In this document: positions 3-20,062 of the stretch, piece after piece
Layout of the letters: each line of letters opens with the position of its first letter
How positions within the stretch are numbered: position 1 is the first letter of the stretch
From: a virus
Direction: 5' to 3' (one strand)
Length of the DNA: 21,609 nucleotides
Virus record (IMG/VR): IMGVR_UViG_3300032053_000609
Location: 1 to 21,609 of that record
Program-made: the position numbers and the translations under genes
Notes under the pieces: generated by a model
The model's database searches: none
What the model saw: only the letters and a program-made list of their open reading frames with translations
Told to the model about the DNA's origin: nothing

Positions 3-1217
3 ATTAATGTCAAGAAGATTATGCTGGAATTAAATTTGTATGAAGATATCTATTCACCAATTATGACTGGTGATGTTACTTTGGGTGATGCTGCTGACAT
101 TGTTTCTTCATTTAAACTCCATGGAAACGAGTACATTTTAATAGATGTAGATAAACCTAGTTTAGATAAGCCCATTCGTAGGACGTTTCGTATCTACAAA
201 ATTTCCAATAGAACTTTTGTTACCAATGCTCTACAGAACTACACATTGCATTTTTGTTCAGAAGAACTGATTTTATCTACGCAGACTGTTTTGAGTAAAT
301 CATTCAAAGGATTAAGAATAGATCAAATGGTTAAGAATATTCTTACCAATACTCTAAAAGTAAATCCTAAGAAGATGAAAGATGGTATCTTTACTGAGAC
401 AACTGGTCAATTTGATATTATCGTTCCACGTATGCAACCATTAGAAGCAATTCAATGGTTGTCTCCTAGAGCATACAAAGACAAACAAAATCTATTTTTC
501 TTCTATGAGAATAGAGATGGATTCAATTTTACCTCATTAGAAAATCTCATAAGTAAACCAGCATATGATACATATAGTAGATCTGTAAAAATCAGCACTG
601 AAGTCCCGGAAAATCAAAACTCATTCAACTTTATTAGTATAGTCGAGGATTTCGACATCATAAAGGCAATGAGGAATGGTAGCTTTTCTTCTACACTTAT
701 GGTACTAGATTTGGTGACTAGAAAACTTGGTACATATAACTACAATGCTACGCAGATACCAAAGGCTAGTTTATTGAATAAGCAAATTCCTACCAATGAC
801 TTGAAGAACCGTCTTGGAAATAGTCTTTATACATCTAAAGAAAATATGTTCAAATTTATTACATCAAAAGATTCAGATCCTACATCCAATCCTGCTGATA
901 TCAAAAATTGGTTGCCGCAAACGGCTACTAGACTTGGTTTGCTTAATACATTCAAAGTTGTTATCTCCATTCCTGGCGATATTATGGTCAAGGCTGGCGC
1001 GGTAGTTAATCTAATTATCCCCAGAATGTTAGTACAAGATGATAAAACTATCAATGATCCTATGAGAACTGGTAAATATTTTGTGTCTAGTGTTCACCAT
1101 CAATTTACTCAAGACATTGCCGCTACGGTATTAGAATTGCTTTCTGATAGTGTTGGTGCAGATTTACCTGGTGCTGCTCAGAGTTCTCAAACAATTTCTA
1201 ATATCATCAAACTATAA
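3..1217 (+). CDS. gp27: Baseplate central hub protein, T4 gp27-like (5' end outside window)
   Basis: This is the ring-forming hub protein that joins the tail tube to the spike in contractile phage tails. The frame is open from base 3 and reads INVKKI before the first ATG at 21. The conserved-looking text LELNLYEDIYSPIMTGDVTL follows directly, so the ATG at 21 is probably internal and the true start lies before the window. At least 404 residues are present, against about 390 for T4 gp27. Family-like patterns are the early 'YEDI..P.MTG' strand and the middle block with 'LSKSFKG' followed by 'IVPRMQPLEAIQWLSPRA' and 'FFFYENRDGF'. The C-terminal third is beta-rich. It overlaps the spike gene by one base (TAATG), as expected for two proteins made together and assembled as one complex. 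The assignment rests on pattern recognition and on the gp5 neighbour; sequence identity to T4 gp27 is certainly low. Confidence 0.8.
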   Translation: MNVKKIMLELNLYEDIYSPIMTGDVTLGDAADIVSSFKLHGNEYILIDVDKPSLDKPIRRTFRIYKISNRTFVTNALQNYTLHFCSEELILSTQTVLSKSFKGLRIDQMVKNILTNTLKVNPKKMKDGIFTETTGQFDIIVPRMQPLEAIQWLSPRAYKDKQNLFFFYENRDGFNFTSLENLISKPAYDTYSRSVKISTEVPENQNSFNFISIVEDFDIIKAMRNGSFSSTLMVLDLVTRKLGTYNYNATQIPKASLLNKQIPTNDLKNRLGNSLYTSKENMFKFITSKDSDPTSNPADIKNWLPQTATRLGLLNTFKVVISIPGDIMVKAGAVVNLIIPRMLVQDDKTINDPMRTGKYFVSSVHHQFTQDIAATVLELLSDSVGADLPGAAQSSQTISNIIKL

Positions 1218-3256
1218 TGTCATCATTAGATAAAAATTTCCTTGGTATGGATGGATTCATCTGGTTCTTCGGCGTTGTCGAAGACCGCCAAGACCCATTG
1301 GGTTTGGGTAGAGTTAAAGTCCGTATATATGGTTGGCATTCAGAATCACTTACAGACATTCCATCTGAGAGTCTACCTTGGGCACATGTTGTTCATTCCA
1401 ACAATGATCGTGCATTTGCTACGCCAAGAGAAGCAGATTTAGTAATTGGATTTTTCGCAGATGGGAGAAATGGACAGGCACCAATCATTCTTGGTATAGT
1501 TCCTGGATATTTCACTAGCAAGCCAGATACAGGTTCAGGCTTTCATGATCTAAGAACTAAGGAAACTCTAAAGCTTTCCCCAAAGCATCCAATCAAGCGC
1601 ACATATAATAAGGATGGCTCTGGTATTGTCATTGAAGAAGCTAACACTGCTAGCAATACTGTTCTGGAATCTCTACGTCATCCAAACTCAGATGAATTTG
1701 ATAAGGAAAGTATCTCTGGTGTCGCTCGCTATGAGAATCTGGCTAATACTGTTATCAAGGCACGTAAGACCAATCTAGACAAAGATGTGATCACCGCAAA
1801 TGGTGTTCAGTGGTCTGAACCATATCCTGCTTATAATCCTCTCTATCCATATAATCAAGCCAATGAAACAGAATCTGGACATATCTTTGAACTAGATGAT
1901 ACTCCGAAACATGAACGAATTCATTTAGCTCATCGTTCAGGATCATATGTTGAATGGTTTCCTACCGGAACAAAAGTTGAGAAGGTCACCAAATCTAACT
2001 ACAGCATAGTCATGGCAGATGATCATTTGCATGTCATGGGCAAAGTAATGATCACCATAGACAACGATGCTCTGATTAAAGTAAAAGGCGATGTAATTTT
2101 AGAGGCAGGCAATAATCTATCTGCTAATGTTGCAGGCTCTATGAATTTCTCCGTTGGTGAAAATCTAAACATCAAGAGCAAGAATCTCAATTTAGACGTT
2201 GCAACTGATATTACACTTGTGTCACAATCGGTTCATCTAGCAGGACAGAGCGTAGATATTACATCAGCAGACACGAAGATTGCTTCTTCTGGAGATCTAA
2301 ATCTATCCGCTGGCGGCGCTGGAAACTTCCAGTCTGGTTCCGATATGAATCTTTTGGCTGGCGGCGGCTCCAAGCTCACAGGCTCCGGAGTAGATATTAA
2401 TGGTGGTTCTTCTGTCAAAATACAGGGTTCAGATGTTGCTATCAAGAAGGGTGCTGCCAGTGCCTCCGGAGCGTCCTCTGCGGCGGCAGGAACGGCGACA
2501 GGATTGCCTGCTGCCGCTGGTAAAGCCACAAAGACCACCGGAGAGGCGGCAGCAGAGACGGTTCCGGTCCCATTAAAATCTGTGCTGATAGATTTCGATC
2601 CAGAAACGGCTGTGGCATACAAACAACAGCAATTTTTGGTGGACAAGGGTGATGGAACTCTTACAACTCCTGATGCGCCTGCTTCAAATACTTCAAACAC
2701 ATCGAATACTTCTTCGAACAATTCATCGAGTGCCTGCGGATTTGATCCATTAACACATACCTTTCTATCGGATCCATCTTCTTGGGCAATCAGCGATAAT
2801 GGTCTTTCTTTCATCAAACGTAAAGAGGGTTTCGCAAAAGTTGTCAAGGCAGATACTGTTGCCGCATATCCAGATCCTCCAGGGTCTGCAACAACGTTTG
2901 CTATCGGCTATGGAACCACTGGACCAGCTGTTGACCAGACAATTACAATTGGAACATTGATCTCTCGTGCTACTGCCGAAGAGTATCTGCGCTATGCTAT
3001 CAACAAGAAATTTCTGCCAAAGCTTCGTCAGACTATTTCTGTGCCATTGACTCAAAATATGATTGACGCATGTTTGTCTTTCATGTATAACATTGGAGAA
3101 GATGGTTTCTCAGGGAGCACCATGAGAAAGCGCATCAACGAGAAGAATTGGTGTGCAGCTGCTGATGCGATGCTCGCTTGGAAGTTTGTTGATAAGGTTC
3201 CTAATGCCAGTTTGTTAGCGCGCAGACGAGATGAACGAGCATTGTTCTTGACGTAA
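1217..3256 (+). CDS. gp5: Baseplate spike, T4 gp5-like, with C-terminal GH24 lysozyme
   Basis: This is the cell-puncturing spike, 679 residues. Residues about 12-105 form the gp5/VgrG OB-fold, with 'GVVEDRQDPLGLGRVKVRIYGW' spread over two strands and 'DLVIGFFADGRNGQAPIILG'. Residues about 233-411 are short repeating beta strands (for example GDVILEAGNNLSANVAGS), consistent with the trimeric beta-helix needle. Residues about 412-510 are an Ala/Ser/Thr linker that includes an Asn-Thr-Ser tract. Residues about 525-679 are a glycoside hydrolase 24 (T4-lysozyme-like) domain, which cuts peptidoglycan. Its Glu537 (KRKEGF) and Asp553 (AYPDP) match the catalytic Glu and Asp, but the usual Thr before IGxG is Ala562 (FAIGYG). 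In T4 the lysozyme lies between OB-fold and needle, so the order here is changed. The start at 1217 overlaps the upstream stop and has no clear Shine-Dalgarno, suggesting translational coupling. Confidence 0.88.
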   Translation: MSSLDKNFLGMDGFIWFFGVVEDRQDPLGLGRVKVRIYGWHSESLTDIPSESLPWAHVVHSNNDRAFATPREADLVIGFFADGRNGQAPIILGIVPGYFTSKPDTGSGFHDLRTKETLKLSPKHPIKRTYNKDGSGIVIEEANTASNTVLESLRHPNSDEFDKESISGVARYENLANTVIKARKTNLDKDVITANGVQWSEPYPAYNPLYPYNQANETESGHIFELDDTPKHERIHLAHRSGSYVEWFPTGTKVEKVTKSNYSIVMADDHLHVMGKVMITIDNDALIKVKGDVILEAGNNLSANVAGSMNFSVGENLNIKSKNLNLDVATDITLVSQSVHLAGQSVDITSADTKIASSGDLNLSAGGAGNFQSGSDMNLLAGGGSKLTGSGVDINGGSSVKIQGSDVAIKKGAASASGASSAAAGTATGLPAAAGKATKTTGEAAAETVPVPLKSVLIDFDPETAVAYKQQQFLVDKGDGTLTTPDAPASNTSNTSNTSSNNSSSACGFDPLTHTFLSDPSSWAISDNGLSFIKRKEGFAKVVKADTVAAYPDPPGSATTFAIGYGTTGPAVDQTITIGTLISRATAEEYLRYAINKKFLPKLRQTISVPLTQNMIDACLSFMYNIGEDGFSGSTMRKRINEKNWCAAADAMLAWKFVDKVPNASLLARRRDERALFLT

Positions 3257-3292: not shown

Positions 3293-3685
3293 ATGGCTTT
3301 AACCACCAGAACATATTCAGACTTTGATGTTTCATTCAGAGCTCATCCGATAACGAAAGATCTTGTTAAAAAGACAGGTGCTAATGCTGTTGTGCAAGCT
3401 ATTATTAATCTAGTTCAGATCAATAATTACGAAAAGCCTTTCCACCCAGAGATCGGCGGCAACCTTCGTAAACTACTTTTTGAACCAGTTGATAACATAA
3501 CGTCAAATTTAATAGCTCAAGAAATTAGACTTACCATAGCGAATTTCGAACCAAGAGCTACTGTGTTGGGAGTATATGTTCAAAGCAATGTTCAAGAAAC
3601 AGGGTATGATGTCACGATAGAATTTTCTATATTGACTCTACCAACACCAATTACCATTTCCGTCTTTCTAGAGAGACTAAGATAA
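3293..3685 (+). CDS. gp25: Baseplate wedge subunit gp25
   Basis: At 130 residues it has the expected size for gp25 (T4 gp25 is 132). Gp25 is the small wedge protein that contacts the hub and helps start sheath polymerisation; related proteins occur in type VI secretion (TssE). Visible features are 'DFDVSFRAHPITKDLVKKTG' at the N-terminus, 'INNYEKPFHPEIGGNLRKLL' in the middle, and the diagnostic EPR motif at Glu86-Pro87-Arg88 (NFEPRATV). The start is the ATG at 3293, 36 bases after the spike stop. No strong ribosome binding site is visible. It lies one base upstream of the gp6 start, matching the T4 gene order 25-6-7-8. Confidence 0.95.
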   Translation: MALTTRTYSDFDVSFRAHPITKDLVKKTGANAVVQAIINLVQINNYEKPFHPEIGGNLRKLLFEPVDNITSNLIAQEIRLTIANFEPRATVLGVYVQSNVQETGYDVTIEFSILTLPTPITISVFLERLR

Positions 3686-3686
3686 A

Positions 3687-5744
3687 ATGTCAGCCAATAG
3701 CAAAGTAAATTTAACAAATATAGATTTCGACTCACTAAAGTCAAGTCTAAAAACTTTCATGAAATCACAGTCTCAATTTTCAGACTTTGATTTTGAAGGT
3801 GCTGGTATCAATATCATATTAGATCTTTTGGCATATAATACCCATTATAATGCTTTCTATCTGAATATGGTCGCCAATGAAATGTTTTTGGATACAGCAG
3901 TTCTTCGTCAGTCTGTTGTTTCTCATGCTAAGTCTTTAGGATATACACCACTATCTTCTGTTGCATCACAAGCTACTGTTAATGTAACTATCACCAAAGC
4001 TAATAGTGATCCTACAGTTTTGCTGACGATGCCGCGCTTTTCTAGTTTCTCATCTGATTCTCTTGATGGAGTTTCTTATAATTTCGTAACGCTTGATAAT
4101 ATCATAGCTAATGCAAGTGGTAATACCTTTGCTTTCAATAATGTAATTATCAAAGAAGGTTCTCCAACAGTCAAGACATTTATTCAGGATGGGGCTACTA
4201 ATTCTAAACAAATATTTGATTTGGTTGATGCTGGGATTGATACTTCTACAATTCAAGTGATTGTCCAGAAGTCCCTGACTAACATTCTACAAACACGCTT
4301 TACATTAGCCACTGATAGCACTGTAGTTAATGCTACATCAAATGTATATTTCCTACAAGAAGGAACTAATGGAAATTATCAAATATACTTTGGTGATGGT
4401 GTTATTGGTAGTGCTCTAGAGGATGGTAATATTGTTATTATTAGCTATATCACCACCAATGCTGATGCTGCAAATTCTTTACAGACATTCAAACTAAAGA
4501 GCAGTTTGCTCTCTAGTTCTACTTCTAATGTATCAACAGTAGCTATATCCGCAGGTGGAAGTGCCGCTGAAGATATTAGTAGCATTAAATTTAATGCACC
4601 AAAATCATATATTGCACAGAATCGTGCAGTGACTAAGAATGACTACATTGCTTTGATCAATCAGAAGTATCCATATTTTGATGCAGTGACTATTTGGGGT
4701 GGAGAAGAAGAACTTCCACCAGTTTATGGCAAGGTCTTTATTTCTGGCAAACCAAAGAATGGTTATGCTGTAACAGAATCTCAAAAACTATATATCATTA
4801 ACAATATAATCAAACCAATTTCAGTTCTAACGGTTACTCCAGAATTTGTAGACGTAGATTATAATTATATTCTTCTATCTATAAATGCTGAATACGATTC
4901 AAAGCAGACAACGAGATCTGAAGGAGAAATCAAGACTCTGATTTCTTCTGCCGTGAATAACCATGCTAATTTAAATCTAAACACTTTCAATTCAGAATTC
5001 CGTTTGTCACGACTTTTAAGATCAGTAGACGATTCAGAAGCTTCTATTCTATCTTCTACTGCAAGTGTTTTCATAGAAAAACAATTTGTTCCTAGTATTA
5101 CTTCATCACAAACATATACCCTAACATATGGAATTCCTCTGAAGCGTGGAACTACAACAGATAAACTCTATAGCACTCCATCATTTAGTATTCTGGATAA
5201 TGGCGGTGTTACTCGTTCAGCCTTTATTGAAGAGACTCCAGAAAGCTTCTCTGGACTAGAAGAAGTGAAAATTGCAACATCTGGCACAGGTTACATTACC
5301 GCTCCTGCTCTAACAATTACTGGAGATGGTATAGGTGCAAATGCTTATGCTATTATTGTAAATGGTAAAGTGGCTTCTATTGTTATTGATAATCCAGGTT
5401 CTGAATACACGACAGCAACAATCAAAGCAACAGGTGGTGGCGGCTCTGGAGCAACCTTCGTTGCAGGTCTACACGGACGTACTGGAATATTGAGAACATA
5501 TTATTATGATGGTAACAACAATAAGACTATTATAGATGCTACTGCCGGGTCCATAGACTATACAAGTGGTATAATTGTTTTAACAGACTTTACTCCAACG
5601 GCAATCTCTAGTCAATACGGTATCTTGAAGCTCATTATTCAACCTGATGTTCTATCATTTGCTTCTTCAAAAGCAAATATTCTAACGATTGATCCTAATG
5701 ACATCAATGCAATCACTGTTGCACTAACAAATATAAACAATTAA
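3687..5744 (+). CDS. gp6: Baseplate wedge subunit gp6
   Basis: This is a 685-residue homologue of T4 gp6 (660 residues), whose dimers form the inner ring that ties the six wedges together; it is related to the phage P2 J family. The N-terminal block, 'IDFDSLKSSLKTFMKSQSQF' then 'DFEGAGINIILDLLAYNTHY' and 'NMVANEMFLDTAVLRQSVV', is highly characteristic of gp6 in T4-like phages. A 'FGDGVIGSALEDGN' strand and the 'AVTKNDYIALINQKYPYFDA' segment follow in the usual order. Residues about 525-605 carry two GxGY-type repeats (Tyr536, Tyr574) with a Gly-rich stretch, a module also present in three other proteins here and not a standard part of T4 gp6. A GAGAG tract about 11 bases upstream could serve as ribosome binding site. 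It ends one base before the gp7-like start. Confidence 0.95.
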   Translation: MSANSKVNLTNIDFDSLKSSLKTFMKSQSQFSDFDFEGAGINIILDLLAYNTHYNAFYLNMVANEMFLDTAVLRQSVVSHAKSLGYTPLSSVASQATVNVTITKANSDPTVLLTMPRFSSFSSDSLDGVSYNFVTLDNIIANASGNTFAFNNVIIKEGSPTVKTFIQDGATNSKQIFDLVDAGIDTSTIQVIVQKSLTNILQTRFTLATDSTVVNATSNVYFLQEGTNGNYQIYFGDGVIGSALEDGNIVIISYITTNADAANSLQTFKLKSSLLSSSTSNVSTVAISAGGSAAEDISSIKFNAPKSYIAQNRAVTKNDYIALINQKYPYFDAVTIWGGEEELPPVYGKVFISGKPKNGYAVTESQKLYIINNIIKPISVLTVTPEFVDVDYNYILLSINAEYDSKQTTRSEGEIKTLISSAVNNHANLNLNTFNSEFRLSRLLRSVDDSEASILSSTASVFIEKQFVPSITSSQTYTLTYGIPLKRGTTTDKLYSTPSFSILDNGGVTRSAFIEETPESFSGLEEVKIATSGTGYITAPALTITGDGIGANAYAIIVNGKVASIVIDNPGSEYTTATIKATGGGGSGATFVAGLHGRTGILRTYYYDGNNNKTIIDATAGSIDYTSGIIVLTDFTPTAISSQYGILKLIIQPDVLSFASSKANILTIDPNDINAITVALTNINN
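5268..5480 (+). repeat. GxGY repeat module in gp6
   Basis: Gp6 residues about 525-600 hold two copies of a short beta motif. The first is TSGTGYITAPALTITGDG (Tyr536), followed by 'ANAYAIIVNGKVASIVI'. The second is NPGSEYTTATIKATGGGGSG (Tyr574). The pattern is Gly-x-Gly-Tyr-x3-Pro, a strand, a Gly-rich turn, then 'A.A.I..G.V..I'. The same pattern occurs in the gp7-like, gp8-like and 919-residue proteins. Function is unknown. Confidence 0.7.
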
Positions 5745-5745
5745 T

Positions 5746-8700
5746 ATGACTGAGCCGATCACTAACACTGTATCAACTTTCATTGATAGTCAGCTTCCTC
5801 AATTTATTAGGGAAGATAATCCTCGCTTTGGTGCGTTTCTCAAAGCATATTATCAATGGATGGAGACAAGCAACAATTCTGCCATCATTGGAGAATCTAA
5901 GAAACTTCTCTCATATAAAGACATAGACCGTACTACAGATGCCTTTATTCAATATTACATTAATGACTTTCTACCATATTTCCCAAATTCAACAGCATTG
6001 GATGAGAAGAAGCTTCTAAAAGCAGCAAGAGATTTCTACCAAAAGAAAGGAAGTGTAGAATCCCTTCAGTTCTTATTTCGCGTGCTTTACAATAAAGAAG
6101 CCAGTATCTATTTTCCAAAAGACAATATTCTAAAAACTTCTGATGGTAAATGGACTCAACCACAAGCTTTACGCGTGGTTCTTGATGCCGAAACATTGAA
6201 TTTTGATGTGAATCAACTCGTTGGTAGATTTGGAGTTGGTTCTATTTCTAATACTTATTGTGTTATTGAATCAGCCAGTAAGACGGTTGATTCAGATCTT
6301 GGTATCACCCTAATAGAATTAATTGTGTCTGGTGTTACTCAAGCATTTGCTCAATTAGAAAATTTGAATATAACTTATACTACAGCCAATGGTAGTTCTC
6401 AATTATTCAGTCAAAAGATTATTGCTGCTTTGTCTGACATAAAGATTGATCCTAATAATCGTGGAACAAAATACACAGGGTATGTTAAGGATTCTGGTGG
6501 AAATTTCACATATCTTGGTGATCCTGTTGTTATTACTGGTGGTCTTGCTTCAGGCGATGTTCAGGCACGTAAAGCAACGGCATTTGTCGGAAATGTAACT
6601 TCTGGATCTATCACTGGAGTTACTGTCCAATATGGTGGTTGTGGCTATCGTGTGTTTCCGAACACAATATCAAGAGTCGTAAATGATCCAGCTGATAACA
6701 CTGGAGCAGGCGCAAATGTTATTGTGCAAGCATTTGATTCTACAAATTCTATATTTCTATTATTGAATACTGATGCAATCATATATAAACAAAATTCAAC
6801 TATTAGTGCTGCAGACTACGCATTCTTAAATTTGGCATTTTCTAATGCCAATACTCCTCTACAAAATGCATTTTCATTTGCAAATGTTCAGTTTGCTGCA
6901 ATCACATCAATGAATGTCATCAATGGCGGTGGTGGATATACAGCAGTACCTACTCTAAATCTCTCAACATTCTATTATTCAGATTACACTACTGACACTG
7001 CTAACACTGGCAATACTGCATTGCTAGCTAATGTATTGAGCTATATTTCTGAGCTTGGATATGTTTGTAATGTGGTTATTGGTTCCGGTGGAACAGGATA
7101 TAGCAATGTGACTGATACAATTGTAGTACCATCAGCCATTGGATATAATGCTACTTTCACATTCCAAACAACAGCAAACGTTATCAGCAGTGTTACTATC
7201 ACTAATAGAGGGGAAGGATATATTCAACTTCCTATAAATTTAATTATTGCTAATAGTACAAATGTTTCTAATTCCTCAGCCGGGTCTAATGCTGTTCTAA
7301 CAGCGTATGGATTTGGTCAAGGTGCACAATTCAATATTGCCGTCGACAAAATTGGTTTGATTAGTGATTTCAGAATCACAAGTCGTGGATTTGATTATAT
7401 TTCAACTCCAAATATATCTCTAAGAATACAAGATGTCATTATTAATACATTGCCAGCAAATACTTCATTTGTTGTAGACACTAAACTATATCAAGGAGCT
7501 AGTATAAATGCGGCAAGTTATAGCGCATACATTGACTCCTATAATGTGACTTCAGGTGTTCTTAGATTATACGACTATCAGGGAGCACTAAATGTCTTTG
7601 CTAATCTTGTTGCTACAACGCTTAATGCTAGAGTTAACATTTCTGCTACTGGAAACGTCAAAACCTATGGTGATGGTAAAGCAAAGGCTACTGCAATTTT
7701 CTTGAATGGTTTAATTAAATTCCCAGGATTCTATTTGAACACAGATGGAATGCCAAGTTCAGATATGTATCTTCAAGACTCAGATAAATATCACAACTAT
7801 TCTTATGTCATTGTTGTAGAAAAGGCATTGTCAGAATACAAGAACACTTTGATGCAATTAATTCATCCGCCAGGAATGGATATGTTGGGGCAATATTCTA
7901 TCATTGCTGATGAGAATATCTCACTCAACGCCGTTAGTAATATTAGTATTTCTACAAATGCTGCTGGAAATATTGGCGTTGATGGGCAATACTTTTCTAA
8001 TACTGGAAATGGTAATGGTTGGTATTCTATATTGAATGCTGGTAACACACCGCTAACAACTATGAAGCCACTATCAAATAGCACATATTGGATACGCACT
8101 GCTGCTAATACTCTAATAGTTAATTCTCCTACAGGAATATTAGCTCCTGATGGATCAACTTCAAATGTTGTTAGAATGACTGAGAATACTTCTCCATTAG
8201 CATTTTATGGACTATCTCACGATTGGGTGGGAGCTGAAAATCCAGTTGGGCAACAAGTAGCTAACGCAAATGTAACATTCTCAATATATGCTAAGTTTGG
8301 TAGTTCTAATGGTGCAAATCAGTTTCTCTCAATAATTTCAGATATAACTGGTGGTAATGATAATGCAGCGGTAACTACATTCAATACTGCAGCAAGTCCT
8401 ATGACGTTTCTTGCCAATAGTAACACTGGCACTCAGTCAAGGCAACGTGGTTGGTCCATCACTCCTGTTGCTAATTCAAATGGTTGGCATCGTTTGGCAA
8501 CAACGGTTACTTTGGGTTCAAATACACAACTTCGTTTCGGAGTAAGTTTTGCTACAACTAGTGCTTCATTGAGTTATCCTACATATGCAGGAAATTCATC
8601 TAATATGATTTATCTTTGGGGTCCTCAATTAGATACTAACACCGGAAATTCAATTACACCAAACCAATATTATGGTTTACATACAATGTTTGGTACACAG

Positions 8701-9093
8701 AATTCATTTGGATCTGTTGGTAATGTTGGTGATATGGTTGTCTTCAATACTACCGATTCAAGCCGCAGACTACATACCAAGACTATCACTGGTATTGGCA
8801 ATGGCAATATTGCGTATTTGGATGCCAATACCAATTTCATCTTCACGAATCCAGCAAACGTTACTAACACATCAAATGTCATAGTAAGTACCAATGTACT
8901 GGGTAATATTGCAGTGAATGATCTTGTTCAATTGAATGTCAATGGAAATATTCAATTGTCACTTGTACAGGTTGTGGCTCAGAATAGTCTGTCTGTAAAT
9001 ACGATATTCCAAGTGAATGTTTCTAATATAATGCTGTCTGTTTTCCCAAGCATGAATGGTGCTAGTTACACAATCGTACAAGCTCCTAAATAA
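5746..9093 (+). CDS. gp7: Baseplate wedge protein, T4 gp7-like core with long extensions
   Basis: The protein has 1115 residues. Residues about 12-170 resemble the C-terminal half of T4 gp7: 'DNPRFGAFLKAYYQWM', then 'FYQKKGSVESLQFLFRVLYN' and 'VLDAETLNFDVNQLVGRFGV'. The closing element of this core, 'YVIVVEKALSEYKNTLMQLI' plus HPPGMDMLG, reappears near residues 688-714. Between them (about 250-565) lie at least five GxGY-type repeats. Residues about 750-975 look like a jelly-roll, carbohydrate-binding or LamG-like domain: 'TFSIYAKFGSSNG', 'NGWHRLATTVTL' and 'MIYLWGPQLD'. A beta-rich tail follows. In T4, gp7 anchors the wedge and contacts gp6, gp8 and gp10; the gene order 25-6-7-8 supports this role. 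The T4 N-terminal half is absent. The start follows the gp6 stop by one base, suggesting coupled translation. The gp7 assignment is strong for the core; the role of the added domains is inferred. Confidence 0.8.
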   Translation: MTEPITNTVSTFIDSQLPQFIREDNPRFGAFLKAYYQWMETSNNSAIIGESKKLLSYKDIDRTTDAFIQYYINDFLPYFPNSTALDEKKLLKAARDFYQKKGSVESLQFLFRVLYNKEASIYFPKDNILKTSDGKWTQPQALRVVLDAETLNFDVNQLVGRFGVGSISNTYCVIESASKTVDSDLGITLIELIVSGVTQAFAQLENLNITYTTANGSSQLFSQKIIAALSDIKIDPNNRGTKYTGYVKDSGGNFTYLGDPVVITGGLASGDVQARKATAFVGNVTSGSITGVTVQYGGCGYRVFPNTISRVVNDPADNTGAGANVIVQAFDSTNSIFLLLNTDAIIYKQNSTISAADYAFLNLAFSNANTPLQNAFSFANVQFAAITSMNVINGGGGYTAVPTLNLSTFYYSDYTTDTANTGNTALLANVLSYISELGYVCNVVIGSGGTGYSNVTDTIVVPSAIGYNATFTFQTTANVISSVTITNRGEGYIQLPINLIIANSTNVSNSSAGSNAVLTAYGFGQGAQFNIAVDKIGLISDFRITSRGFDYISTPNISLRIQDVIINTLPANTSFVVDTKLYQGASINAASYSAYIDSYNVTSGVLRLYDYQGALNVFANLVATTLNARVNISATGNVKTYGDGKAKATAIFLNGLIKFPGFYLNTDGMPSSDMYLQDSDKYHNYSYVIVVEKALSEYKNTLMQLIHPPGMDMLGQYSIIADENISLNAVSNISISTNAAGNIGVDGQYFSNTGNGNGWYSILNAGNTPLTTMKPLSNSTYWIRTAANTLIVNSPTGILAPDGSTSNVVRMTENTSPLAFYGLSHDWVGAENPVGQQVANANVTFSIYAKFGSSNGANQFLSIISDITGGNDNAAVTTFNTAASPMTFLANSNTGTQSRQRGWSITPVANSNGWHRLATTVTLGSNTQLRFGVSFATTSASLSYPTYAGNSSNMIYLWGPQLDTNTGNSITPNQYYGLHTMFGTQNSFGSVGNVGDMVVFNTTDSSRRLHTKTITGIGNGNIAYLDANTNFIFTNPANVTNTSNVIVSTNVLGNIAVNDLVQLNVNGNIQLSLVQVVAQNSLSVNTIFQVNVSNIMLSVFPSMNGASYTIVQAPK
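6500..7430 (+). repeat. GxGY repeat array in gp7-like protein
   Basis: At least five copies of a beta motif with a Gly-x-Gly-Tyr signature occur, at Tyr301 (YGGCGY), Tyr398 (NGGGGYTAVP), Tyr452 (GSGGTGY), Tyr492 (NRGEGYIQLP) and Tyr551 (SRGFDYISTP). Spacing is irregular, about 40-97 residues. Each is preceded by a hydrophobic strand and often followed by Pro. The array is inserted between the two parts of the gp7-like core. Confidence 0.7.
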
Positions 9094-9103
9094 GAGTAAT
9101 CAC

Positions 9104-9107
9104 GGAG
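9104..9107 (+). promoter_or_regulatory. Shine-Dalgarno GGAG for gp8-like gene
   Basis: GGAG ends seven bases before the ATG at 9115. It supports that ATG over the in-frame ATG at 9136, which would give a start at MSTLTIQQ. Confidence 0.7.
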
Positions 9108-9114
9108 TAGATAT

Positions 9115-10749
9115 ATGCCTGCAGTTTTATCAACAATGAGCACACTAACCATCCAACAGAGGGTGAGATTAGCTGCGGACATGCTTGCCGATTTGACTAC
9201 AGAGAACAACGAAAGTACATATCTTGGTATCGGAAGAAATGCTGCTTGGGCAGCAAATGACACTCTTGTTGAAACTCCTGTTCAGAGCATTGAATATGAG
9301 AATCAGGTTCGTAGAGATTTGATTGCTATTAAAAAACTCTTTCTAACTAATACAAGTCTTGTTATTCGTCGTAAAGATTGGGTTGCCAATACAAAATACG
9401 ATCAGTTCTCTCAGAATGTTGAGATGTACAGTTCTACAAGCACCATTAATGCCAATGGTCAGGTTACTCTAACAAATACCTCGAATGTTGTTGGTGTCAA
9501 TACAACATTCCTACTTGATTTTGCAAATAATAGTCTGATCACTCTTCCCGGAGACGGTATCAATATTCTTTCTCAATTAAGAGAAGTTATAAATGTTGTT
9601 AGCAATACAGTGATTACCACCAATCTAGCTTTCTCAGGAACATTTACATCCAACACTCCCCAAAAGACAGTAAATTACGCACCGAACTATGCTAAGAATT
9701 TCTATGTTCGCAATTCATATGATCAAGTATTTGTCTGTCTAGATAATAATAGTGAATCTCTATCTACTGATATGCCAAAGATCGGCATCGGTGGACAATT
9801 GCCGTCTGACCCATATATTATCACTGCAGATTCATATAAGTGGAAGTATCTCTACACGATGTCTGGTGGAATGAAACAGAATTTCCTAACTTCAGATTGG
9901 ATGCCTGTTACACAAGATGACAATGCTGCAATTGCTGCGGTTGATGGTAGACTAGATTTTGTCAGAATATTCAATGGTGGCACTGGATATAATAATACTG
10001 CAGCAACGCTCTCTGCTGCCATTCTCAATGTGAGTGGTGATGGTACTGGAGCGAATCTCACGGCACAGGTAGATGCCAATGGCACTATCTATGGTATAAA
10101 CATGCTTAATGGTGGTTCTGGATATACCAAAGGCAATATCACAGCAAATGTTGGAACAACTGGCGCTAATGCGAATCTCTATATGGTAATTGGTCCTTCG
10201 GGCGGCTGGGCATCTAATGTTGCTCTTGAACTGGGTGCGACAACAGCCATGTTCTCTATTACTATCACAGGAACAGAGAGTGGTACTATCCCGACAGTAG
10301 ATTCTTTGGGAAATTTCTTCAAATACAGACAAATTACTTTGATTCAAAAACCGCTGCTGGCAAATGGCGCGGCAGCAAATGCAACCAATTATGAAATGAG
10401 TTCTTCTGCTTCGGTTTCTTCAAATATACCATTTGCTATGGGAGATCTAGCTTACCAAAGCTCAACAGGGTTGTATGCTAATGCAACATTCACAGCAAAT
10501 GTTGTGTGGTTTGATCCAAGTACCAATCAATTACACCTAAATAACTTGAATGGGACATTTGCAGCACTTACTTCACTATATGGAACAACTAGCTCAAATG
10601 CATCACCATATGGGGCAACAACAGCATTTTCATTATCCACTCCAGCTATAAAATTAACTTCAGGCGATTTACTTTTTATGGAAAACAGAGCGTCAGTAAC
10701 TCGTTCTCCAAGTCAATCAGAAAATATCAGAATCATAATTCAGTTCTAA
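9115..10749 (+). CDS. gp8: Baseplate wedge protein, gp8-like
   Basis: This 544-residue protein carries the gp8 pattern: 'STYLGIGRNAAWAANDTLVE' near the start, 'VIRRKDWVANTKYDQFS', then 'NFYVRNSYDQVFVCLDNNSE' and 'ADSYKWKYLYTMSGGMKQNF', and a C-terminal 'GDLLFMENRASVTRSPSQSE' segment typical of gp8 in marine T4-like phages. T4 gp8 has 334 residues and forms dimers in the wedge next to gp7. Two additions explain the larger size here. Residues about 105-185 are a small beta domain with 'VVGVNTTFLLDF' and 'GINILSQLREVINVVS' (a 'GxxTxF' motif common in phage tail proteins). Residues about 280-360 hold two GxGY repeats (Tyr292, Tyr337). The start at 9115 is supported by GGAG upstream. It follows the gp7-like gene by 21 bases, as in T4 order. 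Confidence 0.87.
   Translation: MPAVLSTMSTLTIQQRVRLAADMLADLTTENNESTYLGIGRNAAWAANDTLVETPVQSIEYENQVRRDLIAIKKLFLTNTSLVIRRKDWVANTKYDQFSQNVEMYSSTSTINANGQVTLTNTSNVVGVNTTFLLDFANNSLITLPGDGINILSQLREVINVVSNTVITTNLAFSGTFTSNTPQKTVNYAPNYAKNFYVRNSYDQVFVCLDNNSESLSTDMPKIGIGGQLPSDPYIITADSYKWKYLYTMSGGMKQNFLTSDWMPVTQDDNAAIAAVDGRLDFVRIFNGGTGYNNTAATLSAAILNVSGDGTGANLTAQVDANGTIYGINMLNGGSGYTKGNITANVGTTGANANLYMVIGPSGGWASNVALELGATTAMFSITITGTESGTIPTVDSLGNFFKYRQITLIQKPLLANGAAANATNYEMSSSASVSSNIPFAMGDLAYQSSTGLYANATFTANVVWFDPSTNQLHLNNLNGTFAALTSLYGTTSSNASPYGATTAFSLSTPAIKLTSGDLLFMENRASVTRSPSQSENIRIIIQF
9960..10190 (+). repeat. GxGY repeat module in gp8-like protein
   Basis: There are two copies, at Tyr292 (NGGTGYNNTAATLS) and Tyr337 (NGGSGYTKGNITANVG), about 45 residues apart. 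They are separated by 'GDGTGANLTAQVDANGTIYG', which matches the strand-turn-strand pattern seen in the gp6 module. Confidence 0.7.
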
Positions 10750-14653: not shown

Positions 14654-17413
14654 ATGTCGAAAATTTCACCTATTTTTACAACTGTTGGCAACTATTTGGT
14701 TGATCGATCAGTAGTGCCTTATATCAGATCATTGCCGATGTATATTAGAGGATTTAATCTACGTCCTTACGCTTATGCAAACTATTGGTTTGACCAAGTA
14801 GCAATTAATGCATATGTTCAACCAGCGTCATTTTTACATATTTCTTCTGGCGCCGCAGCAAATCTCTTCACACACCAAGAAGGTGTCTATTGTGTTAATA
14901 CTCACGCATATGGTGTAGTATGTGAGAATTCGCAAGGAACTATTCTCCACATTGACGAAAATTATCTGTGTATGAATGTTCAGCCATTTGGTCCGAATGG
15001 CTCAAACTCATTCGCATCATCTGATTATGCTGTTGGTGATGTTGTTTATATGTCTAACAACTCTCCAGATTTATATTCTAATACATCTATGGCGCGTGTG
15101 GTGTATTGGGATTCTGCAAATGGTGGATTGGCTCTTGATGTTTCTCATGGAACGTTCTCCAATACATCAATAAGTAATGTCATATTTAAAGTTGGTTCTA
15201 CTAATAGAGCTAATGTCGTCAATTTCGTATTTGGTGATAAATTTCCTATTGGTGGGAGAATTATTTCCGTTGCTAATACCGCAAAGAACTTTTTAAATGC
15301 CAATTATCTTCACAATCATGGTGTCATCACAAGAATTTCTGGCGCTGGCAATCAGATTCAATTGTCTGGTAAAGCTAATGCAAACATGGTCAATCAAAAT
15401 ATATATCTTTCTGGTGGGTATGGTATTGGTCAATTAGCAAAAATTATATCAGTTGATACTGGTACTCATGTTGTTACTCTGAATACTTCTTGGGTTGGTC
15501 ATTTTGGTAATTCTTATTATTCAATTGGTCAAGTTCAAGTAGATGATATTGGTATTGCTACTAGCATTTTCCGTATTCCTGAAGACGATAATGCTAAATT
15601 TCAATCTGGTAGTCGTTTGGTAACAGTTAATGATGGTATTTCTCACACTGATAATGCTGCGTCTATGCGCGCATTGGCTACATACGAAGCATCAGGTACA
15701 GGACCAACAAGTGATTCTAAGAGAACTCCGGTTGTTGCTCCTCCTCCACCATTGTCAGCGGGCAGCAGCACAACGACAAGTCCTACTGATCCAACATCAA
15801 GAGCACTAACTCAGATAAGTAATGATCCACAGGCATCAGCAGATCCTCTGGTACAAACATTCTTCACTCCAAAGCCAAATAGCCAAAAGACTGACTATGG
15901 TATTTTCTGCACATCTATAGATCTATTTTTACAAGCAAAACCAACTGGCAATGCAACACATTTTCCTATTAGCGTATACATCGTAGAAACTAACAATGGA
16001 TTCCCAACAACAAAAATGAGAGCACAGACCACGGTTCGCTGGGAAGATGTTAAGACTACAGATGGAGTGACCACGTTCCCTGATTCTGCAAATTCATCTA
16101 CCTATACCAAATTCAGTTTCCCAGATCCAGTATTTCTTTCTCCAGGTAGTGAATATGGTTTGGTTGTTTATTCTGAATCACCAGATTATCAAGTTTGGAT
16201 TGCTCAACTAGGTCAAACTGTTGTTAATAGCACACGTCTGGTTTCCCAGAGTCCATGGGTTGGTGCTCTATTCAAGTCTCAAAATGCTTCTGCTTGGACA
16301 CCTGTTCAAAATCAACAGTTAATGTTTGTATTGAATAAAGCATCCTTCAGCAATCAATCTGCTGCTTTAACTTTCGCAGTAGAACCTCCTACACAAAATA
16401 CTTTCATGGATATTGCATTGCTGCATAGCGGTGATCTAACTTTCCCAGCTGCCAACATATTATATGGATTGAAGACAACTGTTTCTAATACTCTTGCACA
16501 AGATTCTGGGTTCCTATCAGTAGAAGTCAATTCTCCATATAATTTTGGTGGCGATTTAATCAATTCTTCTTTGAGTTCAAATCGTCGTCGCTTGATTGCA
16601 GAAGGCAATGCGAATAGTTGCTTGGTTCAAGTTACTTTAAATAGTTCTGATCCGGATGTGTCTCCATTCTTCCATGCGGAACGTTTGAGTTTAATGTCCG
16701 TGACTAATGTTATCAACAATGGTAGTATTGCTAACACCGATATCTCCATGTTGACAACCGGCACCCATATCAATGCAGCTAACATAGTTGTCACATTCTC
16801 TGCTCCTACTGGAGTTGGTGGTGTCCTTGCTACAGCAAACGTTCTTGGTCTTGCTGGTAATGTTGTAACTTCATCTAATATTAATATTATCAATCCAGGT
16901 TCTGGATATATCGCATCTCCAACAATAACATTATCTGAACCAAGTGCTCTAGCAAATGCGACGGCGCAGGTTTATTCTGAAGATGGTAAGTTTGGTGGTA
17001 ATGGTGTTGCTCGATACATTACTCGTCAAGTTACTTTAGCTGATGGTTTTGACGCCGGAGATCTTGCAGTGTTCATGAATGTTATTCGTCCTCAGGGAAC
17101 TGACATTAGTGTGTACTATAAAGTTCTATCTGCTTCTGATACAGATCCTTTGACTAATAAAAATTGGAAAATCATGTCGAAAGCATTTGATATCTATTCA
17201 GCAGATCAAAGTACTCCTATTCAATTGAATTTTAATACTGGATCAACTGCCATTGGTAGTATTGGAAGTGTCTCTTATGTTGAGAATGGAATAACCTATC
17301 CTATCGGTGGAAAATTTAAGAGCTTCTCTATTAAGATTGTTCTAACAGCAAATGATCCTACAGTTGCTCCAGTGGTCCAAAACTTCCGTGCTATTGCTAT
17401 CCCAGCAGGTTAA
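14654..17413 (+). CDS. Large virion structural protein, companion of the DUF4815 protein
   Basis: The protein has 919 residues. The N-terminal block, 'NYLVDRSVVPYIRSLPMYIR' then GFNLRPYAYANYWFDQVAI, resembles the 'V.P..R...I.F...GL.P....Y.FFD' segment that follows the DUF4815 part in longer phage proteins. Residues about 395-575 form a recognisable beta domain: 'VQTFFTPKPNSQKTDYGIFC', 'SIDLFLQAKP', 'SPGSEYGLVVYSESPDYQVW', 'GALFKSQNASAWTPVQNQQL'. Residues about 705-780 carry a GxGY repeat (Tyr752). The C-terminal block, 'VARYITRQVTLADGFDAGDL' then ISVYYKVLSASDTDP, is also typical of these proteins. A short Pro/Ser/Thr-rich hinge lies near residues 355-390. The start at 14654 has two Shine-Dalgarno-like sites. 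I infer that it works with the preceding protein in the outer baseplate or fibre attachment. Confidence 0.75.
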   Translation: MSKISPIFTTVGNYLVDRSVVPYIRSLPMYIRGFNLRPYAYANYWFDQVAINAYVQPASFLHISSGAAANLFTHQEGVYCVNTHAYGVVCENSQGTILHIDENYLCMNVQPFGPNGSNSFASSDYAVGDVVYMSNNSPDLYSNTSMARVVYWDSANGGLALDVSHGTFSNTSISNVIFKVGSTNRANVVNFVFGDKFPIGGRIISVANTAKNFLNANYLHNHGVITRISGAGNQIQLSGKANANMVNQNIYLSGGYGIGQLAKIISVDTGTHVVTLNTSWVGHFGNSYYSIGQVQVDDIGIATSIFRIPEDDNAKFQSGSRLVTVNDGISHTDNAASMRALATYEASGTGPTSDSKRTPVVAPPPPLSAGSSTTTSPTDPTSRALTQISNDPQASADPLVQTFFTPKPNSQKTDYGIFCTSIDLFLQAKPTGNATHFPISVYIVETNNGFPTTKMRAQTTVRWEDVKTTDGVTTFPDSANSSTYTKFSFPDPVFLSPGSEYGLVVYSESPDYQVWIAQLGQTVVNSTRLVSQSPWVGALFKSQNASAWTPVQNQQLMFVLNKASFSNQSAALTFAVEPPTQNTFMDIALLHSGDLTFPAANILYGLKTTVSNTLAQDSGFLSVEVNSPYNFGGDLINSSLSSNRRRLIAEGNANSCLVQVTLNSSDPDVSPFFHAERLSLMSVTNVINNGSIANTDISMLTTGTHINAANIVVTFSAPTGVGGVLATANVLGLAGNVVTSSNINIINPGSGYIASPTITLSEPSALANATAQVYSEDGKFGGNGVARYITRQVTLADGFDAGDLAVFMNVIRPQGTDISVYYKVLSASDTDPLTNKNWKIMSKAFDIYSADQSTPIQLNFNTGSTAIGSIGSVSYVENGITYPIGGKFKSFSIKIVLTANDPTVAPVVQNFRAIAIPAG
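16880..16990 (+). repeat. GxGY repeat module in the 919-residue protein
   Basis: There is one clear copy at Tyr752 (NPGSGYIASPTITLSE), preceded by 'ANVLGLAGNVVTSSNINI' and followed by 'ANATAQVY'. It is inserted just before the conserved 'ARYITRQVTLADGFD' block, where related proteins would be expected to run on without it. Confidence 0.65.
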
Positions 17414-17641: not shown

Positions 17642-20062
17642 ATGGCAAATGCCAATATCAATTTAATTGCATTATCTAATACATTCAATGATTGGAGAAT
17701 TGTAGATAATAATCTTGCGAATTCAGTGAATGAATTGCGCAATGGAAACTATTATAAGGATGGAGGAAACTTCACTCTTGCGACCGGCACACTATTAATC
17801 TCTGGTGCAACTGGAACAACTCTTTCTGTTGTTGGCAATACTTTGTTGTCTGGCGTGACAACTATGGGATCCTCTATCACTACTGGTGATGAGAGCGCGT
17901 TTGGTAATCTAACAATGACAGGTGTGGGTAGTTCTTTGGCTGCTGCCAATGTCATTACTTCTCCAACTATTATAGCTAATGCAAGTTTGCTAGCTAATGG
18001 TTTGTTATTGGTCACAGGATCTAATCTTGCCAATACCAGATTGGTTAGTACCATCAATGGTAATGCTATAGTCAATGTTGCTAATGTGTTCTTAATGTCA
18101 AATACTGGTAACACAGAACTCAAGGGAGTTTTGTTTCTAACCAATACTGCAACTGCCTTGAATATTACAAATAATGCGATCATTGCTGGTAATCTATCTG
18201 TCCTTCAATCTGCCAATCTCAATATTGCCAATATAACTCAGGCAATTATCTTAACATCAAATGTTGCCTTAAGCAATACCGTAAACTCTTTTGTCACCGG
18301 AGTAATAACTGCTTCCAATTCTACGGTTGGTAATGCTTTTGTGGTTGCTGCTGGTAACATTGGTGCTAATGGTATCACTGTAACTAAAGACTTGGTTGTT
18401 GCTCAGAATACAAAACTAAATCAAGCTAATGTCACTCTTGCCAATATAACTCAGGCAATTATTGCAACATCAAATGTTGCCTTAAGTAACACGGTAAACT
18501 CTTTTGTCACCGGAGTAATAACTGCTTCCAATTCTACGGTTGGTAATGCGTTCGTTGTCGCTGCTGGTAACATTGGTGCTAATGGTATCACTGTAACTAC
18601 AGACTTGGTCGTTGCTCAGAACACAAAGCTAACTCAAGCCAATGTTACGACTCTTAATGCTTCAGTTGTTTCTATTACAACTAACGCAAGTCTTACAACT
18701 CTATTCTTAGATCCAACTAAAGTCTTCCAGATTGTCAATGGAAATGCTACGTTCAATAACGTAATAATTAATGGAACAACGACAACTGTGGGTAATACTG
18801 TATCTTCTTCTGATACATTTGTTCTTCGTAGTGGACTTGCTACCTCTGGTGATATACACATCGTTGGTATTCAAGGAACAACAAATGGTAATGCTGATTT
18901 CAAATTTAATCAGACTGCTAATGTATTTCAAACAACGGCTAATGTCGCCAATGGTTATACAACTGTTATTACAACAGCAAACATTGCTGATTCTGTAAGT
19001 AACACTTCTCTAACTGCGGTTGGCTCCGCTAACTCTGTTGCTTGGGCGTGGGAACAGGCAAATCTAGCATACAATGCTGCTAACAATGCGTCTAACATAG
19101 CAAACAGTGGAACCACTGCCAACGCTGCATATATTCAGGCAAATCTAGCAGCAAACCTTGTAGCCGTTCTTGCCAATGCTGGTTTGATAATGGCAAATGC
19201 CAATTTGAATTTTAACAATACCGCAACTGTTAATGTTTCTGTAACGGCAAATGGGACAATGAAGGCAGCTAATATTTCCTTCTCACTCAATACTTCTGCT
19301 GGTGTTCTTGGTCCTCAGGGTCCTCAAGGTCCTTCTGGAACAGCAGGAGCGCAAGGTCCTCAAGGTCCTGCGGGAACAGCAGGAGCGCAAGGTCCTCAAG
19401 GTCCTACTGGTGGTACTGGTTCAACAGGAGCGCAAGGTCCTCAAGGTCCTACTGGTGGTGCGGGTAGCACTGGTCCGCAGGGACCGCAGGGACCACAAGG
19501 ACCACAGGGACCAACTGGTGCTACTGGAGCACAAGGACCACAAGGTCCAGCGGGTTCAACTGGTGGCACTGGTTCAACAGGTCCGCAGGGTCCTCAAGGT
19601 CCGCAGGGTCCTACTGGTTCAACAGGTCCGCAAGGTCCTACTGGTCCTGGAACTCTAGTTTCGCAGGCATCAACTTATGTTGCCCACTATTCTGCAGCAA
19701 CAACCATCACAGGCGCAGCTGCATTCACATATAATGGCACAACAGTAACAGCAGGTGACTTTGCTGCTACATCTGATGCTAGATTTAAGAATATTGTGGG
19801 ACCAATTTATGATCCAATTGGAAAATTGAGTAGAGTTCGTGGTGTTGAATACACTTGGAATGGTTTAGGTCTCGAAAAAGTTTCTAAGGATACTAGATTG
19901 CAGGTTGGTGTCATAGCTCAGGATGTTGAACAAATATATCCTTCTGCTGTTTCAGAAAGTGCAGACAAATATCTAAGTGTTTCTTATAATAAGCTAATTC
20001 CTATTCTAATAGAAGCAATCAAAGCACTGGATGATAGACTTAAGAACCTAGAGAGAAAGTAA
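17642..20062 (+). CDS. Tail fibre with collagen-like stalk and C-terminal S74 intramolecular chaperone
   Basis: The protein has 806 residues. The N-terminus, '[20 protein letters not shown]' then [19 protein letters not shown], is the type found at the virion-attached end of T4-like marine fibres. Residues about 60-510 are repetitive Asn/Thr/Ala/Val beta text, including two near-identical 71-residue units. Residues 511-553 are a module shared with the gene at 21256. Residues 557-670 are 38 uninterrupted Gly-X-Y triplets (mostly GPQ, GPT, GST), expected to form a rigid collagen-like triple helix. Residues about 709-806 are a peptidase S74 domain: ATSDARFKN, then RGVEYTWNG, '[15 protein letters not shown]', '[20 protein letters not shown]'. 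Such domains help trimers fold and then release themselves at a conserved Ser-Asp, here Ser711-Asp712. The fibre probably mediates host recognition. AAGAG precedes the start by eight bases. Confidence 0.88.
18227..18652 (+). repeat. Two tandem 213-base units in the fibre gene
   Basis: Units at 18227-18439 and 18440-18652 encode 71 residues each, with only three clear substitutions in the aligned core (Leu/Ala, Lys/Thr, Asn/Thr). One 56-base stretch, beginning GTAAACTCTTTTGTCACCGG, is identical in both. Other parts differ mostly at silent positions. This suggests a fairly recent duplication or gene conversion that lengthens the beta shaft. Confidence 0.9.
19310..19651 (+). repeat. Collagen-like Gly-X-Y tract, 38 triplets
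   Basis: The tract encodes Gly-X-Y without interruption from Gly557 to Gly670. It is repetitive in DNA too: a 33-base block beginning GGAACAGCAGGAGCGCAAGG occurs at 19337-19369 and again, identically, at 19373-19405. Such DNA can expand or contract by slippage, changing stalk length. Confidence 0.95.

Follow-up and report, generated by a model that had tools for sequence, protein, structure and literature searches.

The window analyzed here, a stretch of 21,609 nucleotides, carries near its start a single unbroken open reading frame of 679 aa. Directly 5' of it lies a gp27-like gene, a placement also found in KVP40, phiM7, and pf16, and on its other side stand genes for two baseplate wedge proteins (Table 1). 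The gp6-like gene has its nearest isolates in Melnitz, HTVC008M, Cr30, and cyanophages, and the order gp27-like, gp5, gp25, gp6 is a usual setting of gene 5 in T4-like phages. Judged by its sequence, the product of 1217-3256 is the gp5 central spike of an uncultivated T4-like bacterial virus; a search of NCBIfam gave no better family for it. Elsewhere in the window, a fibre-like protein (17642-20062) combines collagen triple-helix repeats with a C-terminal S74 chaperone domain, and similar Gly/Tyr-rich stretches (e.g., GTGYITAP, GGGYTAVP, GTGYNNTA, and GSGYIASP) recur in several baseplate proteins (3687-10749 and 14654-17413).

Table 1. Features of the spike locus and of two related phage loci, with the basis of each assignment
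Feature	Position	Strand	Basis
gp27-like baseplate hub gene	3-1217	+	PHROG 350 "tail protein," 1.1e-81; 5' end cut by window
gp5-type central spike with C-terminal lysozyme, 679 aa	1217-3256	+	Domain searches, T4 gp5 homology, model
OB-fold domain, residues 12-105	1250-1531	+	Pfam, T4 gp5 homology, strands 16-94 in model
Linker, residues 106-204, at position of T4 gp5 lysozyme	1532-1828	+	No catalytic domain found
Predicted beta-helix (needle) domain, residues 205-411	1829-2449	+	Period-8 repeat after antiparallel strands 213-256
Tether, residues 412-520, mostly low confidence	2450-2776	+	pLDDT; Ser/Asn/Thr-rich run 490-505
GH24 lysozyme domain, residues 521-679	2777-3253	+	Pfam, P22 lysozyme homology, fold
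Glu537, catalytic Glu equivalent	2825-2827	+	Alignment with relatives
Asp553, catalytic Asp equivalent	2873-2875	+	Alignment with relatives
Ala562 (GCT) replacing catalytic Thr	2900-2902	+	Thr in every clade relative
gp25-like baseplate wedge gene	3293-3685	+	PHROG 261, 5.6e-43; directly 3' of gp5
gp6-like baseplate wedge gene	3687-5744	+	PHROG 219, 5.1e-148
PAAR + M15-like fusion	L180:3846-4835 (Vibrio phage 1.244); L179:4446-5450 (Pseudomonas phage Milchi)		

The OB-fold of T4 gp5 matches spike residues 14-120 (phmmer, i-Evalue 2e-10), a homology that marks the protein as a gp5-type spike, and the Pfam matches Phage_base_V (19-94) and Gp5_OB (47-112, 1e-4), both under the Pfam cut-offs, fall in the same region. 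Pfam and comparison with T4 gp5 found no enzyme domain in residues 106-254, and the T4-type internal lysozyme is absent; KVP40 gp5 likewise has no lysozyme between OB-fold and beta-helix. Homology to the T4 gp5 beta-helix follows at residues 175-278 (i-Evalue about 3e-13), PHROG 430 covers residues 164-450 (2.6e-77), and the Pfam trimer-domain match is weak. An 8-residue period runs through residues 255-335 (z 4.5; other periods from 5 to 14 are not comparable) and is weaker over residues 335-411 (z 1.7). The domain begins near residue 205 with antiparallel strands, which compare with T4 gp5 389-427. We modeled the spike with AlphaFold2 as a single chain, using an alignment of 50 proteins from the window and contigs (mean pLDDT 77; about 90 in the OB-fold, about 80-91 in residues 205-340, about 65-76 in 341-400, and about 62-96 in the lysozyme). 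In VIA-align, model residues 12-411 match T4 gp5 6-576 (Z 16.9, 343 residues), but at an rmsd of 9.5 Å and with no strands assigned in the needle, as would be expected for a single chain taken out of an interwound trimer. The identity of the needle is thus supported by homology and the 8-residue period rather than proved by the monomer model.

Past the needle, mean pLDDT is about 35-65 across residues 401-510, and the chain then enters a domain that Pfam assigns to GH24 (residues 549-673, 4.3e-23). The closest solved relative of this domain by sequence is P22 lysozyme (7e-22), free P22-type endolysins are the nearest to it (about 40% identity), and in fold comparison with VIA-align residues 521-679 match muramidases at Z 20-22, the best being a GH24 muramidase at 21.7. 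The hydrolase therefore stands C-terminal to the needle within one chain, as in spikes of the RaK2 gp078 type. The first-pass annotation had proposed an OB-fold at residues 12-105, beta-helix-like repeats at 233-411, a flexible linker, and a GH24 lysozyme at about 525-679. Domain searches and the model bear out this order and the OB-fold; the alignment with T4 gp5 up to residue 411 and the period of 8 agree with the proposed beta-helix, but its start lies nearer 205, and the onset of the lysozyme is corrected to near 521.

The same arrangement recurs beyond the window. Three further contigs from this phage (L014-L016) and the relatives L094, L095, L017, L018/L005, and L019 keep OB-fold, needle, tether, GH24, gp25, and gp6; relatives with this order come from other metagenomes at 58, 53, 47, and 44% identity, and the distant L020 and L021 also have a C-terminal GH24. 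Such repetition in independent contigs and diverged relatives refutes the explanation that the order is a product of chimeric assembly or gene calling. Mean identity within the clade is 0.56 for the OB-fold, 0.51 for GH24, and about 0.34 for the end of the tether (residues 476-505). The GH24 value, near that of the OB-fold and well above that of the tether, indicates that the lysozyme domain is being kept and is not decaying. Given its kinship with free endolysins and the cleavage of T4 gp5 itself (PMC3004832), the GH24 domain might be taken for the lysis endolysin of this phage, freed from gp5 either by proteolysis or through an internal start. This seems to us very improbable: no in-frame Met codon occurs between residues 377 and about 615, related spikes have quite different hydrolases, including peptidases, at the same place, which fits entry better, and in L020 and L021 the neighbors of the spike also include a PAAR gene and an ORF with an M15 motif.

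Further searches extended the comparison to phage records and bacterial genomes. By tblastn, neither the full window spike nor that of L021 found a phage record covering 80%, a search that diverged cases such as RaK2 gp078 escape. A prophage scan of the genome collection yielded one distant spike, in a flavobacterial metagenome-assembled genome, with no lysozyme by Pfam. A GH24 candidate in cyanophage ACG-2014f was rejected as not being gp5; this 405-aa protein with a GH24-like end (L171:1754-2971, Synechococcus phage ACG-2014f) adjoins genes for ferrochelatase and NAD synthetase.

The catalytic set Glu-Asp-Thr is incomplete in the window's GH24 domain. Glu and Asp are kept, at a spacing longer than in T4 lysozyme, whereas the Thr is replaced by Ala in four contigs of this phage (the window and three others) and is present in all relatives. 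Solved structures of this endolysin family are all said to keep Glu-Asp/Cys-Thr (PMC8228626); a literature search for a measured activity of a Thr26-to-Ala lysozyme found nothing. Set against the family-wide Thr, Ala562 leads us to predict that the window's copy may be weak or inactive. It could even be that the domain has ceased to work as an effective enzyme and now acts as a structural or wall-binding tip, much like the co-opted muramidase domain of SpmX, which ranks with the closest folds (Z 21.1) and is described as a detoxified phage lysin (reference 52 of PMC8228626). We regard this as unlikely, since Glu537 and Asp553 are retained and the catalytic Thr or Ser is an accessory, water-positioning residue (PMC5674055); with Thr in all other members, at most the window's species would be affected.

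Other enzymes are found after the needle in related spikes. Among the gp5 relatives from IMG/VR, GH19 occurs in L026, L033, and L146 (only L146 exceeds the Pfam cut-off, and the calls in L026 and L033 come from a model built from these tails), M15 in L046, L106, L107, L116, and L131, and an NlpC/CHAP-like TIGR02594 domain, under the model's cut-off, in L097 and L155. The sister spike L050 ends in a VgrG3-type domain (Pfam PF21277, 1.8e-30); in the same protein (L050:242-2503) the needle is separated from this domain by a PAAR-like stretch (AARVGDP ... GSTTVKIG) at about residues 390-440. In the isolates pf16, Cr30, BUCT-ZZ01, and Melnitz, gp5 terminates in an M15-family domain, and phiM7 gp5 has an endolysin-like C-terminus. 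The gp5 of Melnitz-3 is encoded by two overlapping genes (L175:3001-6044), of which one has the OB-fold and an M15-like motif and the next the needle and another M15-family domain. Pfam found no hydrolase family in the long gp5 tails of L027, L040, L102, L105, L117-L125, L130, L140, and L145.

Phage PAAR proteins were described as standalone in a survey of jumbo phages (PMC7824862). Milchi and Vibrio phage 1.244 have a short gp5 without an enzyme and a PAAR protein fused to an M15-like domain (Table 1); the M15 part is under the Pfam cut-off, its motif is visible in the sequence, and pieces of it align with M15-tailed gp5. One domain family, M15, thus moves between spike ends and PAAR tip proteins. 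This suggests a common site of delivery for the two, so that an enzyme on the gp5 C-terminus would be brought to the tip region.

Is the PAAR tip itself affected by an enzyme at the needle end? We found no PAAR gene between gp5 and gp25 or anywhere in the 21.6-kb record, an incomplete genome, in line with the first-pass annotation, which had seen no PAAR-like gp5.4 gene; the window's GH24 clade likewise shows none where PAAR usually stands. We then surveyed 89 nonredundant contigs with gp25 downstream, a sample seeded with the window spike, so that its percentages are not prevalences. A PAAR gene stands between gp5 and gp25 for 19/20 bare spikes, which end with the needle, against 6/20 enzyme-tailed spikes (1/8 of those with GH24), 0/13 spikes with an HxH end, and 0/6 with a PAAR-like end. 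Bare ends differ from all others at a Fisher p of 3.5e-12, a value that ignores relatedness. On a tree of 330 N-terminal columns, which requires at least eight changes for the presence or absence of an enzyme and at least three for GH24, independent pairs agree with the link between bare end and PAAR gene in 5-8 of 9 cases, with none opposed (median p 0.016); this test is weakened by end classes that are simple patterns chosen after seeing the sequences and by the move of L120 out of the bare class for the tree. The survey yields a simple, testable rule: from how gp5 ends one can predict if an adjacent PAAR gene is present. Enzyme tails do go with the absence of PAAR from its usual place, but the earlier idea that a tail might bar a PAAR tip is not a rule: Cr30 has a C-terminal M15-family domain on gp5 together with a PAAR gene, and in L020/L021 a spike with C-terminal GH24 is followed by an ORF with an M15 motif, two small ORFs, a PAAR protein, gp25, and gp6. 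The free ORF with the M15-type motif in L021 (2829-3593), between GH24-tailed gp5 and PAAR gene, has no Pfam match. In the window's own clade, a changed tip is likely.

How would such a spike work? We hypothesize that three gp5 chains sit with their OB collar on the gp27 hub and are wound into a beta-helix needle, as in T4, whereas the T4 lysozyme position is empty and a GH24 domain related to P22-type endolysins is attached after the needle by a flexible tether of about 100 residues. Contraction of the sheath would most likely drive the needle through the outer membrane, whereby three tethered lysozymes would be carried into the periplasm to cut peptidoglycan near the needle and allow the tube to pass. 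The data show the domain order and its conservation, the homologies, the gene neighborhood, and the recurrence of other hydrolases in this position; we infer the trimer, its position in the virion, the timing, the cutting of the wall at entry, and the activity of the window's copy. In our best reading, which we consider probable, the wall is cut by lysozymes that are brought in at the needle tip or behind it. It is favored by the occurrence of other predicted peptidoglycan hydrolases in this position (GH19, M15, NlpC/CHAP-like, and VgrG3-C). In T4 the beta-helix inhibits the gp5 lysozyme (PMC3004832), and by analogy the tethered lysozyme of the window would be free of such inhibition, which counts against it.

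The three lysozymes might lie at or beyond the tip, as the first-pass annotation had them; a tether of roughly 100 residues could also allow them to fold back along the needle and to work exactly as in T4, the chain order alone being different. In T4, long linkers do place the lysozymes alongside the beta-helix (PMC3004832), and the length of flexible chain after the window's needle would suit such a course. We nevertheless find the folded-back arrangement doubtful, although less so than the loss of enzyme function discussed above, because the PAAR tip of other phages carries the same M15 family and because the coincidence of enzyme tails with loss of the PAAR gene means that something at the tip has changed.

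The chances seem to us evenly balanced that a large group of T4-like phages from the environment shares an exchangeable slot at the needle's end, which may be bare and capped by a PAAR tip, hold a built-in apex (HxH or PAAR-like), or carry a swappable wall hydrolase (GH24, GH19, M15, NlpC/CHAP-like, or VgrG3-type), the PAAR gene then often being lost or itself an enzyme carrier. If true, phages would have in this slot their own counterpart of evolved VgrG and specialized PAAR effectors. A literature search covering few subscription journals found no paper describing the slot or the PAAR link. Whether the effector-on-spike design is a peculiarity of the type VI secretion system (T6SS) or was already common in phage tails can be addressed directly with these proteins. 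At least five distinct enzymes and positions are concealed under automatically assigned names of the type "baseplate hub subunit and tail lysozyme."

A lysozyme at the C-terminus of a spike, and with it an unusual composition, has been reported for RaK2 gp078 in 2013 (PMC3622015) and for CBB_240 in 2017 (PMC5259590). These proteins of Alcyoneusvirus-type jumbo phages share OB-fold, predicted beta-helix, and C-terminal GH24 with the window spike but are longer (886-894 aa) and distant in sequence, with an M23 peptidase match between needle and lysozyme (we checked RaK2 gp078: OB-fold 23-116, helix-type repeats 280-344, M23 match 545-607, and GH24 763-870). The window spike thus adds a new and simpler case to a kind of protein that is known but has drawn little notice. 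T4 gp5 has a homologous OB-fold and beta-helix, a gp27-like hub partner, and a GH24 enzyme on the spike, but in the order OB-fold (1-129), lysozyme (174-339), beta-helix (389-575), with gp5.4 as the PAAR tip (PMC4576200); in the window the lysozyme comes last, and no gp5.4-type gene is seen in the 21.6-kb record. The gp5 proteins of pf16, Cr30, BUCT-ZZ01, and Melnitz also have a hydrolase after the needle, which is an M15 peptidase instead of a lysozyme, with an extra internal muralytic domain in Cr30 and BUCT-ZZ01 and a division into two genes in Melnitz. Cyanophage A-1(L) gp15 similarly builds several hydrolases into the center of the baseplate, but on the hub and not on the spike (PMC10966104). 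A likeness to evolved VgrG proteins, suggested by the first-pass annotation, is strengthened by the VgrG3-type domain at the same place in the sister spike. Evolved VgrGs of the T6SS (e.g., VgrG3 and VgrG3cp of Vibrio cholerae) carry an antibacterial wall hydrolase after the needle as well, in VgrG3cp a pesticin-like (lysozyme-type) muramidase (PMC9927483); in the window, however, the gp27-like and gp5-like parts are separate chains encoded in a phage baseplate operon and not one chain in a T6SS locus.
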